Shown here: positions 25,835-34,317 of the stretch, piece after piece
Numbering within the stretch: the stretch's first letter is position 1
How the letters are laid out: each line of letters opens with the position of its first letter
Source of the DNA: a candidate division BRC1 bacterium HGW-BRC1-1
GTDB taxonomy: Bacteria > Sumerlaeota > Sumerlaeia > Sumerlaeales > Sumerlaeaceae
Assembly (NCBI GenBank): GCA_002842095.1
Contig: PHCB01000003.1
Span: forward strand, 62,001-126,000
Direction of reading: 5' to 3'
DNA: 64,000 nucleotides
Position numbers and translations under genes: made by a program
The notes under the pieces: generated by a model
Databases searched by the model: none
Seen by the model: only the letters and a program-made list of their open reading frames with translations
Told to the model about the DNA's origin: nothing

Positions 25835-25920
25835 CCCTATCCCATGCTTTGTTGTTTAAATCTTCAGGAATTCTCCATCGGGATGGGGCAAGCACAGAAT
25901 TCAGTACCCAAGGTAAACCC

Positions 25921-27291
25921 ATGAAAGCTTGGTTAGTCGTTCTTGCCGGAGCCGTGTTGACGGCCATGGTAACTCTTCCCCGCCCCCCCGAGGCGCAGCG
26001 TGCTGCCCTTATTTCCCCCGGGCCCAGCCAGACGCTTGCGTCGCTTGAGGTGCAGCGCATCTCATCCTCGCAGGGATTTGCGGCGCGCTCGCCCATTTCC
26101 GCCTTCTCTTCGGCCCACAAGCCGTTGGACGGTATCCGGATCTGCATTGATCCCGGCCACGGCGGCCAAGCCATGTCTAAAACCCACTACACCGGTGGCA
26201 CCATTGGTGTCGCTACAGGCCAGACCGAAGGCGACGTGAACCTGCGCGTCTCGCTCTGCTTGAAGCATTATCTCGAGGCAGCCGGCGCGACGGTTATTAT
26301 GACGCGTCTCAGCGATCAACGCTGTCAGGACGATTGCAACAAGACCCCCGAACTGGACTTCCGCAGCCGTCTGGCAAACGTGAAAAACGCCGATCTGTTC
26401 ATCAGCGTTCATCATAATGAAGCCTCCAATTCCTCGGCCAATCACGCCGTGATGTTCTATCCTGGCGGCATGGCAAGCGCCGTTTCTCTGGCAGACAACG
26501 TTGGCTCGGCCGTTGGCAAATACATGGGCCTCGAGTTCATCGGTTCCAAGCCGGGTGACTACCGTGTGCTCGACGGCATTCGCATGCCGGGCATTATCGT
26601 CGAGGCGAGCTTCATGAGCAACCACGCGGAAGATCAGCGTCTGGCCTCCATCGCCTACAACAAACTTGAAGCCAAGGCCATCGCCACGGGCATTCTGAAT
26701 TACGTGAAACTGACCAAGGGTCGGCAGGTGGACTTCAACGCCATCTTCGCCCCCATCGACGAGAACGCAGGCACGGCCCAGGCCATCGCCGACGCATCCT
26801 TCGTGCGCAAGCAGGTCATCGAGCGCCGCTCTTTGTTCGGCGTGCAGTATGAAGAAGTCACCTACGACGCCGCCGGCAAGGTCATCGCCAGCCGCCAGGT
26901 GGGTGGCAGCAGCCTTTCGAGCCGCGTAAGCAAGGGCAAGACCACCGTGGCGAAGTCGTCGAGCAAGAAGTCGTCGAGCAAGAAAGTGGCTTCCGTGTCC
27001 AAGTCGAGCAAGTCGGTTTCGTCTTCGTCAAAATCGTCGAAGTCTTCGAAATCGGATGAAAAGAAATCGACCGCCAAGAGCAGTTCCAAATCCTCCGGAT
27101 CGAGCAAATCTTCATCCTCCAGCAAGAGCACCGCGAAATCCTCGTCGTCCTCCAGCAAGAGTAGCTCAAGTGCTTCAGCCTCGAAATCTTCGTCGGGCAA
27201 ATCAGGCGTGGTAATCAAACAAGTCTCGACACCCGTGCTTAAAATTAAAAGCCCCGACAGCAAAAAAGAAGTCGCTTCCTCGAAGAAGTAA
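25921..27291 (+). CDS. N-acetylmuramoyl-L-alanine amidase (Amidase_3) with Ser/Lys-rich tail
   Basis: 456 residues from ATG 25921; the earlier in-frame codons add 24 residues before the signal peptide (MKAWLVVLAGAVLTAMV). The zinc amidase domain (about 72-270) shows the ligands H80 in DPGHGG, E103 in QTEGDVNL and H164 in SVHHN, and the catalytic Glu in IIVEASFMSN. It cleaves the amide bond between MurNAc and the stem peptide in the cell wall. Residues about 340-445 are almost only Ser and Lys with Ala/Val, a low-complexity cationic tail that could bind anionic cell-wall or DNA surfaces; no SPOR or LysM domain replaces it. An intrinsic terminator follows. Confidence 0.9.
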   Translation: MKAWLVVLAGAVLTAMVTLPRPPEAQRAALISPGPSQTLASLEVQRISSSQGFAARSPISAFSSAHKPLDGIRICIDPGHGGQAMSKTHYTGGTIGVATGQTEGDVNLRVSLCLKHYLEAAGATVIMTRLSDQRCQDDCNKTPELDFRSRLANVKNADLFISVHHNEASNSSANHAVMFYPGGMASAVSLADNVGSAVGKYMGLEFIGSKPGDYRVLDGIRMPGIIVEASFMSNHAEDQRLASIAYNKLEAKAIATGILNYVKLTKGRQVDFNAIFAPIDENAGTAQAIADASFVRKQVIERRSLFGVQYEEVTYDAAGKVIASRQVGGSSLSSRVSKGKTTVAKSSSKKSSSKKVASVSKSSKSVSSSSKSSKSSKSDEKKSTAKSSSKSSGSSKSSSSSKSTAKSSSSSSKSSSSASASKSSSGKSGVVIKQVSTPVLKIKSPDSKKEVASSKK

Positions 27292-29297: not shown

Positions 29298-30314
29298 ATG
29301 AACGTATCTGAGGTTGTTTTTGACGGCGGCACCGCTGAATTGCGGCCGGGCGAACTGCCCGACCTCCCTCCGCGGCACGTCCGCGTGCGCGTGAAATTCA
29401 GCGCCATCAGCGCCGGCACGGAACTCGGCATGAAGCACGCCTCGGGCGAGAAGCAGTTGCTCATCAGGCCGGGCTATCAGGCCTGCGGCGTTGTTGAAGC
29501 CATTGCCCCCGATTGCGAATTGGACCTCGCCCCCGGCGATTGGGTGGCATGTTACGGCGCGCCTTATACCCACCATGCCGCGCTGCTCAATGTGCCGCGC
29601 AATCTGGTGGCCAAACTGCCCGCCGGTGTGAAACCGATGCACGCCGCCTTTGGCGCGCTGGGCACCATCGCGCTCCACGCCTTCCGAGTGGCCCATCTTT
29701 CCCTTGGTGAAACCGCAGCCGTGGTGGGCCTTGGTGCCCTCGGAAACATCACCGCCCAGCTTTGCGCCGCTGCGGGTTGCCGCACCGCGACGCTCGACCA
29801 CCTCGAAACCCGCCGCGCCGCCGCCATGGCTTGCGGCCTGTCAGTTTCGGCCGACATGGATGCCCTGCGGGCCGAGGTTGGGCGCATCTCCGACGGTGCC
29901 GGTGCCGACGCCATTTTTCTGGCCGTGGGCAACGCCAGCGAAGAGCTACTGACCGACGCCGTGAACCTCCTCTGCCATCGTGGACGTGTGGTGCTCGTCG
30001 GCACGGGCACACCGGCGCTGCCCCGCGAGCCGATGTTCTCGAAGGAAGCCACCATCGTGGTCAGCCGCGCAGGAGGGCCGGGGCGCTACGACCCAACCTA
30101 CGAAGCCGGGGGCGTGGATTATCCCCACGGGCTCGTGCGCTGGACCGAGGGGCGCAACCTTGCGGAATTCGTCCGACTGCTGGATCGCGGCGCCGTGGCC
30201 ATCGAGCCGCTCATCAGCGACGTGATGCCCCCCTCCGAGGCGGCCAACGCTTACGAACTTCTGATTTCTGAACCCGAAAAACATGTGGGAGTCGTCTTCG
30301 CATGGCCCGATTGA
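29298..30314 (+). CDS. Medium-chain zinc-type dehydrogenase (alcohol/polyol dehydrogenase-like)
   Basis: 338 residues. It has the MDR two-domain layout: catalytic domain with FSAISAGTELGMKHASGEK and LAPGDWVACYGAPYTHHA, and a Rossmann domain with AVVGLGALGNITAQL (about 146-160). The usual zinc-binding Cys of the active site (GxGC) is not evident, placing it near bacteriochlorophyllide- or crotonyl-reductase-like branches of unknown substrate. The next gene, a metal-binding lipoprotein, starts 12 bp before its stop. Confidence 0.8.
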   Translation: MNVSEVVFDGGTAELRPGELPDLPPRHVRVRVKFSAISAGTELGMKHASGEKQLLIRPGYQACGVVEAIAPDCELDLAPGDWVACYGAPYTHHAALLNVPRNLVAKLPAGVKPMHAAFGALGTIALHAFRVAHLSLGETAAVVGLGALGNITAQLCAAAGCRTATLDHLETRRAAAMACGLSVSADMDALRAEVGRISDGAGADAIFLAVGNASEELLTDAVNLLCHRGRVVLVGTGTPALPREPMFSKEATIVVSRAGGPGRYDPTYEAGGVDYPHGLVRWTEGRNLAEFVRLLDRGAVAIEPLISDVMPPSEAANAYELLISEPEKHVGVVFAWPD

Positions 30315-31255
30315 TTCTGCGCTGGACCATCGGTCTCCTGATCGCTGCCACCGGCATCACCGGCTGCAAACCCCATCAGGGTCCGCCCCCGCGCCAGCCG
30401 GGTGAAAAGCTCAATGTGGTGGCCACCACCGGCATGATAGCCGACGCGGCCAACGCCGTGGGCGGAGACTTTGTGAAGGTGACCGGTCTCATGCGGCCCG
30501 GCGTGGATCCGCACATGTACAAACCCTCCGAGGGCGACGTGCGGCGTCTGGCCGAGGCGAATGTGGTGATGTACAACGGCCTTCACCTGGAGGCGCGACT
30601 GGGCGACGTGCTCGAGCGCATGGGCGACCGCATCAAGACCGTCGCCGTGGGCGATGCCATTCCCGCGGATCGTCTCATCGAACCGCCCGATGGTGGACAG
30701 GCTCACGATCCGCACATCTGGTTCGACGTGGATCTCTGGGGCCTCGTGGTGGGACGCGTGCAGGAAACACTGATGGAAGCGATCCCCGAACACGCCGACG
30801 AGATTCGCGCCCAGGGCGAGGCCTACCGCGCCAAACTGGCGGAGCTGGACCAATACACCCGCGAAAAAATTGCCACCATCCCCCGCGAGAAACGCGTCCT
30901 CATCTCAGCCCACGACGCATTCTTTTATTTCAGCCGCGCTTACGATATCGAGGTGCGCGGGCTTCAAGGCATAAATACCGCCGCCGAAGCGGGCGCCCGC
31001 GATGTGGATGACCTCGCGGCCTTCATCGCCGGGCAGCGTATCCCCGCCATCTTCGTCGAGACGTCCGTTCCCAAACGCAACATCGAGGCGGTCATCGAAG
31101 CGGTGCGCGCCCGCGGCCATGAAATCCACATTGGTGGAGAACTGTTTTCCGATTCCATGGGCGCTGTCGGCACCACCGAGGGAACCTACCTCGGCATGGT
31201 GCGGCACAACGTGGACACCATCACACAAGCACTTGCGGGAGGAACCGCGCATTGA
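30302..31255 (+). CDS. Metal ABC transporter substrate-binding lipoprotein (ZnuA/TroA family)
   Basis: 317 residues. The signal peptide ends with a lipobox and C22 (GITGC), so the protein should be lipid-anchored. It has the cluster A-I fold with candidate metal ligands H71 (VDPHMYKP), H138 (HDPHIWFD), a His in the SAHDAF segment and the Asp of LFSDSMG, the pattern of Mn/Zn-binding TroA and PsaA proteins. It captures Mn, Zn or Fe outside the inner membrane and hands it to the permeases encoded downstream. It is the first gene of a four-gene operon (30302-34317) with each gene touching or overlapping the next. Confidence 0.93.
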
Positions 31256-32055
31256 GTCTCACGCCCCCAAACCCCAACCTGGCCATCGAAATTAACGATC
31301 TAACCGTGGCGTATCACGAAAAACCCGTCCTTTGGGACGTCGACCTTCATGTTCCCGCAGGCGTGTTGATGGCCATCGTCGGCCCCAACGGTGCCGGCAA
31401 AAGCACGCTCATCAAGGCGGCTCTCGGACTTGTGAAAGCCGCAGCGGGCGATGTGCTCATCTTCGGGCGCCCCTATCCCGAGCAACGCCGCCGGGTGGCT
31501 TACGTGCCCCAGCGCGGGTCGGTCGATTGGGATTTCCCCACTACGGTGATAGACGTGGTAACCATGGGCCGCTACGGTGCGCTGGGCTGGCTCAAGCGCC
31601 CCGGTGCCCGCGAGCACGCCGAAGCCATGGCTGCGCTGGAGCAGCTTGGCATGCAGGATTTCGCCGACCGCCAGATCAGCCAGTTGTCCGGCGGCCAGCA
31701 GCAGCGGGTCTTTCTCGCCCGGGCGTTGTCGCAACAGGCCGATGTTTACTTCATGGACGAGCCCCTGCAGGGGGTCGACGCCACCACCGAACACGCCATC
31801 ATGCAACTACTGCGCTCGCTCCGCTCGCAGGGAAAAACCGTGGTCGTGGTGCATCATGATCTGGAAACCGTCGAGGAATATTTCGACTGGGTGACGATGC
31901 TCAACGTCCGCCGCATCGCGTCCGGGCCGGTGTCCGAGGTGTTCACGCGCGCCAACCTGCGCATCGCCTACGGCGGCCGGTCGGCCCTGGGTGCCGAGGC
32001 GCTGGAGCGCGACGAAATCCGCGACGCGAAACCCGCCGCGCCGATCGTGCCGTGA
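31252..32055 (+). CDS. Metal ABC transporter ATP-binding protein (ZnuC/TroB family)
   Basis: 267 residues, TTG start overlapping the previous stop by 4 bp. Walker [10 protein letters not shown] is at 44-52, the signature [15 protein letters not shown] follows, and Walker [24 protein letters not shown] is the typical Q-loop region of Mn/Zn/Fe importers. The protein drives import through the two permeases encoded next. Length is usual for the family. Confidence 0.95.
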
Positions 32056-32068
32056 CGGAAAATCCACG

Positions 32069-33208
32069 ATGATTTTCGGCTTAAACCATACACTCCTCAC
32101 CGTCGCCTTCGGCAGCGCATCACTGGGTGCGGTGGCCGGTGCCCTCGGATGCTTCGCCGTGCTGCGCCGCCAGAGCCTGCTGGGCGACGCGGTCAGTCAC
32201 GCCGCCCTGCCCGGCATCGCCCTCGCTTTCATTCTCACGCAAAGCAAAGAGCCCCTCACCCTTTTTCTGGGCGCCCTCATCGCGGGCTGCCTCGGTGCCA
32301 TCGTTGTGATGAACGTCGTCGCCACCACGCGCGTCAAATCCGACTCCGCTCTGGGGATCGTCCTCTCGGTGTTTTTCGGCGCGGGTCTTGTGCTGCTCAC
32401 CTTCAGTCAACGCCAGCCGGGTGCCAGCCAGGCCGGGCTCGATCGTTTCCTGTTTGGTCAGGCCGCCACGCTGCTCAACCGTGATCTCTGGTTCATGGCC
32501 ATCGCGGGAGCGGTGGTGCTGACAACACTGGTCGTATTCTGGAAAGAGTTCAAACTTCTCGCCTTCGACCCGGTCTATGCATCCAGCCTCGGTTTTCCGG
32601 TGCGCGCTCTCGAAGTCCTTCTCACGGCCCTCATCGTGGCCGCCATTGTGCTGGGCTTGCAAACCGTCGGCGTTGTGTTGATGAGCGCTCTCGTTGTGGC
32701 CCCCGCCGCGGCGGCCCGGCAATGGACCAACCGCCTCAGCACGATGGTTGTCCTCGGTGCCGTTGCGGGTGCGGTGGCCGGCGTGCTGGGCGCCCTCACC
32801 AGCAGCACCTTCGAGCGCGTACCCGCCGGACCCGCCATCGTCCTTTTTGCCGCCGTTATTACGATCTTCTCGTTTCTCTTCGCTCCCGGCCGGGGGCTTG
32901 TGTGGCAAACCATCAACATGCGAAGTCGACACAAAAGCCTGCGGGCCGATGCGCTGCTGGTCAACATGCTCGACATGGAAGAGCAACACGCCCACGACAA
33001 CCCCGAGCACGCTCACTCCACCCGCGCCCTGAAAGCGGCGGCGTCCGTAACCGGAGCCTTCGACGTGAGAGGCTCGCTGGAAAACCTGAACCGTCGTGGA
33101 CTGGTAACCAAACTGCCCGATGACCGCTGGAAACTGAGCACCACCGGCACGGAGCACGCATCCGAACTGACCCGCGGAGAGAACATCGGAGGTACGCCCA
33201 CGTCATGA
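32069..33208 (+). CDS. Metal ABC transporter permease 1 (ABC-3 family) with C-terminal winged-helix-like tail
   Basis: 379 residues from ATG 32069, 13 bp after the ATPase; the longer frame from 31991 is not needed. Residues 1-280 are an ABC-3 permease with about eight to nine helices and the conserved cytoplasmic SLLGDAVSHAALPG near 37-50. Unusual: about 100 further residues follow, with a His/Asp/Glu cluster (MEEQHAHDNPEHAHS, 303-317) and a segment RRGLVTKLPDDRWKLSTTG (342-360) that has the pattern of a winged-helix recognition helix and wing. In ordinary ABC-3 permeases the chain ends soon after the last helix. Function of the tail is inferred, not shown. Confidence 0.92.
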   Translation: MIFGLNHTLLTVAFGSASLGAVAGALGCFAVLRRQSLLGDAVSHAALPGIALAFILTQSKEPLTLFLGALIAGCLGAIVVMNVVATTRVKSDSALGIVLSVFFGAGLVLLTFSQRQPGASQAGLDRFLFGQAATLLNRDLWFMAIAGAVVLTTLVVFWKEFKLLAFDPVYASSLGFPVRALEVLLTALIVAAIVLGLQTVGVVLMSALVVAPAAAARQWTNRLSTMVVLGAVAGAVAGVLGALTSSTFERVPAGPAIVLFAAVITIFSFLFAPGRGLVWQTINMRSRHKSLRADALLVNMLDMEEQHAHDNPEHAHSTRALKAAASVTGAFDVRGSLENLNRRGLVTKLPDDRWKLSTTGTEHASELTRGENIGGTPTS

Positions 33209-34317
33209 CATCCATGCAACTCGAAATCATGCTCATCGCCGCCGTAAGCGCGGTGGCTTGCGCCCTGCCGGGAGTATTTCTGGTGCTGCGCCGCATGGCC
33301 CTCATGAGCGACGCCATCAGCCACGTGGTGCTTCTCGGCATCATCGTCGCCTTCTTCTTCACCGGCGACCTCTCCTCGCCCTGGCTGCTCGTGGGCGCCA
33401 CCGCCACGGGCGTGCTGACGGTGTTTCTGGTGGAGATGGTTACCGCCACGCGCCTCGTGAAGGAGGACGCCGCCATTGGCCTCGTCTTCCCCGCACTGTT
33501 CAGCATCGCTGTCATTCTGGTGTCGCGCTATGCGGGCAACGTCCACATCGACACCGACGCCGTTCTCATGGGCGAGCTGGCTTTTGCCCCGTTCGATCGC
33601 GTGGTCGTGGGCGGCTACGACATCGGCTCGCGGTCGCTGGTGAAGATGGTCATCATCCTCGCGCTGAACGCGAGCCTGTTGCTCGTCTTCTACAAGGAAC
33701 TGAAGATAGCCACCTTCGATCCGCTGCTTGCGGTCAGCCTCGGTTTCCCCGTGGCGGCGCTGCACTACGGACTCATGACACTGGTCAGCGTAACCGCCGT
33801 GGGCGCGTTCGACGCCGTGGGAAGCGTGCTGGTGGTGGGCCTGATGGTTGGCCCCGCGGCGACGGCGTATCTGCTTACCGACCGCCTGAGCCGCATGATC
33901 ATGTGGAGCGCGGGCATCGGCGTGGTGGCCGCTGTGGGTGGGTACTGGCTGGCGTATCTGATGGATGCGAGCATCGCGGGATGCATCACCACCATGCTGG
34001 GCATCATTTTTGGAGCCGCTCACATTGGCGCACCGGACCGGGGCATCATCGCCATGGCCCGCCGCCGTGCCCGTCAGCGTGTGGAATTCGCGCAGCGCAT
34101 GCTGGTCATCCACCTGTTCAACCACGAAGACAGCCCCGAAGCCGCCACGGAAAACCGCGTCGATCACCTCGGCGAACACCTCCGCTGGCGCGCCGGCCAC
34201 ATCGAACGCATCGTAGACTCCGCCCGCCGCAGAAAGCTGATTCAGGAACAAAACGGCTCCCTGACCCTGACCGACGAAGGCCGCACCGTGGCGAAGGAAT
34301 CGCTACAGTTCAGCTGA
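33205..34317 (+). CDS. Metal ABC transporter permease 2 (ABC-3 family) with C-terminal winged-helix-like tail
   Basis: 370 residues, start overlapping the previous stop by 4 bp. Residues 1-275 are a second ABC-3 permease (LMSDAISHVVLLG near 33-45). From about 290 the chain turns hydrophilic and contains IHLFNHED, then HLRWRAGHIERIVDSARRRK followed by LIQEQNGSLTLTDEGRTVA, which has the helix-wing layout of DtxR/MarR-type DNA-binding domains. Together with the first permease this gives two different permeases with related tails in one transporter. The tail might sense metal or bind DNA or a partner; this is inference. Confidence 0.92.
   Translation: MTSMQLEIMLIAAVSAVACALPGVFLVLRRMALMSDAISHVVLLGIIVAFFFTGDLSSPWLLVGATATGVLTVFLVEMVTATRLVKEDAAIGLVFPALFSIAVILVSRYAGNVHIDTDAVLMGELAFAPFDRVVVGGYDIGSRSLVKMVIILALNASLLLVFYKELKIATFDPLLAVSLGFPVAALHYGLMTLVSVTAVGAFDAVGSVLVVGLMVGPAATAYLLTDRLSRMIMWSAGIGVVAAVGGYWLAYLMDASIAGCITTMLGIIFGAAHIGAPDRGIIAMARRRARQRVEFAQRMLVIHLFNHEDSPEAATENRVDHLGEHLRWRAGHIERIVDSARRRKLIQEQNGSLTLTDEGRTVAKESLQFS

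Follow-up and report, generated by a model that had tools for sequence, protein, structure and literature searches.

Regulation of Mn/Fe/Zn ABC importers is usually ascribed to transcription, through MntR, Fur or Zur, and to our knowledge direct control of these importers by protein-level feedback is hardly documented. Among other ABC importers, MetNI and ModBC carry unrelated extra domains, which sit on the ATPase. Trans-inhibition by these domains is established (PMC10710835). A permease with an added domain is found in Chlamydia trachomatis, where YtgC-YtgR (CT069, in the ytgABCD operon, of the order SBP-ATPase-permease-permease) joins an ABC-3 permease to a cytoplasmic, C-terminal DtxR-derived domain. 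YtgR is reported to be a DtxR-like repressor that is released by cleavage and binds DNA in the presence of iron (PMC5599777; PMC7755916), and permease-repressor fusions of this kind have been reported in 11 phyla (PMC5599777). In our search of the open literature, a winged-helix tail on ABC-3 permeases was described only in the YtgR papers. A second close system is troABCDR of Treponema, with the order troA-B-C-D(-R).

The window analysed here, a 64,000-nucleotide stretch of DNA from a candidate division BRC1 bacterium, contains a forward-strand operon at 30302-34317 with the same order of genes. The first encodes an SBP (30302..31255), a metal-binding lipoprotein of the ZnuA/TroA family (PF01297, E 5.9e-77) whose nearest solved relative is TroA (1toa, E 4.5e-90) and in which the DPH, DPH, AHD and FSD ligand motifs (His/His/His/Asp) align. 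It is followed by an ABC ATPase of the Mn/Fe type (31252..32055, PF00005) that starts at a TTG codon; its nearest models, each matched under its cut-off, are also of the Mn/Fe type and include the manganese/iron ATPase model NF011630 (E 1.2e-71, under the curated cut-off of that model). Two permeases complete the operon: permease 1 of 379 aa (32069..33208; PF00950 over residues 8-271, E 1.3e-70) and permease 2 of 370 aa (33205..34317; PF00950 over residues 7-270, E 7.1e-46), the second overlapping the first by 4 bases. Both belong to the ABC-3 family, scoring 238 and 157 bits against a PF00950 cut-off of 20.1. A sequence-only reading of the same DNA had described an operon for a lipoprotein, an ATPase and two ABC-3 permeases, and had placed these genes correctly. 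Given the SBP-ATPase-two-permease order and the TroA-like ligand motifs, the operon is a TroABCD-type metal importer. The resemblance to Treponema extends to some relatives, where a DtxR gene immediately follows permease 2, in the place of troR. Upstream, a dehydrogenase-like gene (29298..30314, forward strand) runs 13 bases into the start of the SBP gene; it is possibly the first gene of the importer transcript, with an uncertain role. An ORF at 25849-27291 begins with a part resembling an N-acetylmuramoyl-L-alanine amidase and continues into a long Ser/Lys-rich C-terminal stretch.

Each permease continues well beyond the end of the Pfam ABC-3 domain (residues 271 and 270), by about 107 residues in permease 1 and about 95 in permease 2. 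Tail 1 spans residues 273-379 (32885..33205, forward strand) and tail 2 residues 276-370 (34030..34314, forward strand). By comparison, the other clear ABC-3 permease of the same genome (G000:C2, locus L002) stops just past the final helix, and the solved PsaC and ZnuB chains likewise lack a tail. Arg-rich stretches directly follow the last helix in both permeases, and the positive-inside rule, together with the number of helices that follow the coupling helix in permeases like BtuC, places the tails in the cytoplasm. The AlphaFold2 models (pLDDT 82.5 for tail 1 and 90.6 for tail 2) support a winged-helix fold for both: each begins with a long helix, goes on through further short helices to a two-stranded wing, and closes with a helix. 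The predicted recognition helix and wing occupy residues 333-356 of tail 1 (33065..33136, forward strand), modelled as a helix and then two strands, and residues 329-356 of tail 2 (34189..34272, forward strand). In VIA-align, E. coli MntR (2h09) was the top match of tail 2 (Z 12.5, rmsd 2.1 over 85 residues) and, tied with 1stz, the joint top match of tail 1 (Z 10.6, rmsd 2.8 over 93 residues), with many MarR and PadR chains close behind in both cases; Foldseek with the tail models gave zero matches past E 0.001. The tails and their recognition-helix and wing patterns, proposed from the sequence alone, are supported by these models, and structure prediction with profile search pointed to a winged helix of DtxR/MntR kinship for both tails.

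The profile searches point to the same family. Among solved sequences, the tail 2 profile matched IdeR and DtxR best (best E 0.0012, IdeR) and the tail 1 profile matched Deinococcus MntR DR2539 (E 0.0053), E-values that are weak singly but mutually consistent; profiles of 48 rows did not sharpen these PDB matches. For all this kinship in fold and profile, hmmscan gave no match of PF01325 itself to the tails. The matches of tail 2 to PF24409, PF25213 and PF09821 all fell under cut-off and were used only as a hint of a wHTH. Membership of the MarR family was considered and rejected: MarR chains lie near DtxR in the fold searches, but the sequence profiles lead mainly to DtxR.

Further evidence of descent comes from nine other genomes of the class (G017, G021, G023, G029, G032-G034, G036 and G037), where each of the two permeases has a tail some 150-165 residues long. 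In the members scanned, and also by genome search, these long tails consist of a wHTH followed by PF02742, the metal-binding/dimerisation domain of DtxR. PF02742 had no hmmscan match in the permeases of the window, whose short tails end where it would start. Profile alignment (hhalign) joined short tail 1 to the N-terminal part of long tail 1 (E 1.9e-16), short tail 2 to long tail 2 (E 3.8e-6) and to long tail 1 (E 3.8e-9), and the two tails to each other (E 2.8e-10). In a tree of the membrane part, the short-tailed permeases 1 came together as a single group (SH-aLRT 96), as did the short-tailed permeases 2 (SH-aLRT 99), with the long-tailed permeases alongside. Because this was a rapid tree, midpoint-rooted and with some long branches, the direction of change, loss rather than gain of PF02742, is only a probable one. 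Tree, conservation and neighbouring genes together fit one old clade with short tails on both permeases. Two genomes (G031 and G047) have a tail on only one permease. In some long tails (L046:8508-8939, L054:7540-7950 and L047:2938-3381) the middle of the HTH is absent while PF02742-like sequence is kept, so that even among the long tails some may not bind DNA.

The locus can now be set against the known systems. The window and the long-tailed pairs are alike in having DtxR-derived tails on both permeases, whereas in YtgC-YtgR only YtgC carries the domain; PF02742 is kept in the long tails and absent from both tails of the window. A complete DtxR-like repressor on the permease chain, as in YtgC-YtgR, is therefore found in the long-tailed relatives, and the window has the wHTH half only. 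Similarly, the tails share the winged-helix fold of the DtxR, MntR and IdeR repressors (PF01325 plus PF02742), E. coli MntR being the best solved match, but they lack the metal-binding/dimerisation domain, and the positions at which DtxR contacts DNA are replaced. The Chlamydia precedent had been overlooked in the sequence-only reading, and the present tails add a variant to the permease-repressor fusions known through YtgR.

Could the tails nevertheless act as transcription repressors, either cleaved off as reported for YtgR or still attached to the membrane, the two tails forming a winged-helix heterodimer on operon DNA? Their homology to the DtxR DNA-binding domain, the YtgC-YtgR precedent and the fusions reported in 11 phyla (PMC5599777) speak for this reading. 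The residues that would touch DNA speak against it. The IdeR alignment of tail 2 allowed us to place on it the DNA-touching positions of DtxR and IdeR. Those at residues 329, 331, 332 and 334 of tail 2 are variable or Phe: the equivalent of DtxR T40 is F332, a Phe in 115 of 120 sequences (96%), and the equivalent of S42 has an entropy of 3.3 bits, against 0.7 in the DtxR genes neighbouring such operons. These neighbouring genes are 76-88% conserved at three aligned contact positions, and 88% at the S54/T56 positions. The surface is also less basic than that of DtxR, with a mean net charge of -1.7 over residues 295-366 of tail 2 compared with +2.1 for the DtxR HTH.

Separate regulators are also common. 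Of the 80 named operons, 29 have a DtxR gene on the same strand, as a rule in front of the SBP gene and sometimes after permease 2, and the operons in G005 and G054 also have one alongside; PF02742 proteins occur in 14 of 15 short-tailed genomes scanned, and the genome of the window has a gene for a 151-aa MntR-like protein on contig C12. A DtxR gene adjoins 31 of 88 short-tailed operons and 0 of 8 long-tailed ones (p = 0.05, with few long operons and relatedness ignored), a preference that is no more than suggestive. On the other side, four genomes of Sumerlaeia whose two permeases both have short tails (G001, G002, G004 and G007, 80-96% complete) yielded zero PF02742 proteins, and there regulation could still lie with the tails. 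Because the DtxR contact positions are lost from the tails but kept in the DtxR genes next to these operons, and because separate DtxR genes are common beside the operons, a DNA-binding role is unlikely; with the metal-binding/dimerisation half absent as well, we consider a YtgR-like repressor quite unlikely.

What the tails have kept is a set of putative metal ligands. In tail 1, a His/Asp cluster at residues 306-317 (QHAHDNPEHAHS; 32984..33019, forward strand) follows an almost invariant family pattern, QH-x-D-x2-H-x-H; over 87 sequences, H307 and H316 are each conserved at 99% and H314 at 74%. Tail 2 has a His/Glu cluster (H303, H307, E308, E316, H321 and H325; 34111..34179, forward strand) in which H303, H307 and E316 are identical in 120 of 120 sequences, with H321 in 109, E308 in 103 and H325 in 94. 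The commonest substitute at H325 is Glu (14/120), which would still be able to bind metal. This cluster, on helices 1-2 of tail 2, is new compared with the repressor ancestor. Other conserved positions stand beside the histidines, namely Trp/Phe and Arg residues (W328, in 119/120, F295 and R287). The cluster in tail 1 had been pointed out before, as His/Asp/Glu, and is both real and conserved; that of tail 2, the more conserved of the two, had not been listed. As for the earlier suggestion that the tails are metal sensors or DNA-binding modules, the invariant residues of tail 2 and H307 and H316 of tail 1 make the first half plausible, while the lost contacts and the separate DtxR genes count against the second.

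Since the metal half of the repressor has been lost and two His and one Glu are fixed in 120 relatives, the tails probably serve as an integral sensor or control domain of the pump, not as a gene switch. We propose that they are a metal-responsive control domain of the importer, acting by trans-inhibition and derived from a fused DtxR/MntR by way of its DNA-binding half, and we give this reading a probability of about 50%. A DtxR/MntR-type repressor would have become fused to the permeases, its DNA-binding half giving rise to both tails as PF02742 disappeared. The two tails would lie side by side beneath the permease pair, adjoining the ATPases, and would take up the imported metal when its cytoplasmic level is high; once loaded, they would brake transport, as in MetNI and ModBC, with transcription left to a separate DtxR/MntR. 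The proposed logic is that of an ABC importer with an additional domain in the cytoplasm, whose function is shown for MetNI and ModBC; for the tails our analysis establishes their presence, fold, ancestry, co-occurrence and conservation, and we infer metal binding, tail-tail contact and inhibition. If this is correct, a conserved sensor-like domain on these permeases, spread over about a dozen phyla and perhaps present in Treponema TroD, would offer a testable route to direct feedback, and the tails would be a clear example of a DNA-binding domain that lost its DNA role yet was kept for another.

The same clusters might instead serve metal-receiving domains that take the ion leaving the pore and pass it on, as a chaperone or a sink, with no part in regulation. 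The position of the His/Asp-rich cluster of tail 1 directly after the last helix, and the fixed cluster of tail 2, would suit such a task. However, a sink needs no whole winged helix, and the long-tailed relatives have the architecture of a sensor, and we regard this explanation as very unlikely.

The proposed control domain is widely distributed. A scan of 84,980 species genomes found at least 562 relatives of permease 2, and the best 80 of these match over the tail too. The record names of these 80 include Sumerlaeaceae, Chloroflexi and other Chloroflexota, Poribacteria, Rhodothermia, Bacteroidetes, Zixiibacteriota and KSB1, and further Dadabacteria, Thermodesulfobacteriota, Deltaproteobacteria, Krumholzibacteriia, Gemmatimonadetes, Calditrichia and Actinomycetota, so that full-length tails turn up again among relatives belonging to about a dozen phyla. 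Because a ranking by full-length match puts tailed copies at an advantage, we repeated the search using just the membrane part. In Chloroflexota, the phylum of G070, 151 genomes were drawn evenly, and 32 of them contained a close permease 2, in every case in an open frame of at least 367 aa. Reading 34 loci (30 from these Chloroflexota genomes and 4 from the phylum of G054) gave tail 2 in 34/34 and tail 1 in 23/34. This figure and the recurrence across phyla exclude chance as the source of the tails. The sequence-only reading had allowed that tails of such length might be usual in the family and unconserved; within this sub-family they are indeed the norm, yet strongly conserved. The distribution may extend to Treponema, where TroD has 366/367 aa and TroC 304/298 aa (PMC2628430): judged by these lengths, TroD may carry tail 2, and TroC is too short for tail 1.

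The two tails differ in how firmly they are held. Where tail 1 is missing, permease 1 mostly stops 24-39 residues past the last helix. Mapped on the tree (loci L173-L202 and the 80 named loci), the presence of tail 1 requires at least 7 changes; it has been lost repeatedly while tail 2 stays. Because the transporter persists through these losses, a mechanism that uses both tails is not always needed. This bears on the main rival to a control domain, that the tails are assembly or coupling domains, holding the two permeases together or docking the ATPases, with His and Glu as structural residues rather than ligands. Such a role would account for the usual co-occurrence of both tails across phyla, short or long together, and for the conservation of W328, F295 and R287. 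Yet permease 1 is retained in the 11 of 34 loci from which tail 1 is gone, solved PsaC and ZnuB assemble without tails, and fixed His/Glu at i, i+4 spacing is commoner in metal sites; we find this explanation unlikely. That the tails are decaying, functionless remnants of a fused repressor would agree with the loss of PF02742 and the repeated loss of tail 1, but it is scarcely credible given that some residues are fixed in 120/120 sequences, drawn from about a dozen phyla, and that tail 2 is kept in 34/34 loci of the less biased sample.

The broader claim, that these importers form a widespread new class in which the DtxR DNA-binding half has become a metal sensor, a heterodimeric pair carried by the two permeases and acting directly to shut the pump, we put forward tentatively, as a possibility with the odds against it. 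A link between the tails was sought in H325 of tail 2, which is kept as His in 6 of 19 sequences without tail 1, where Glu often replaces it, versus 88 of 101 with it; as covariation this was set aside, a sign test on the tree, with few independent pairs, being not significant. In two Poribacteria loci (L117:3840-6143 and L126:3840-6143), the tailed permease pair has no recognised SBP or ATPase gene adjoining it.
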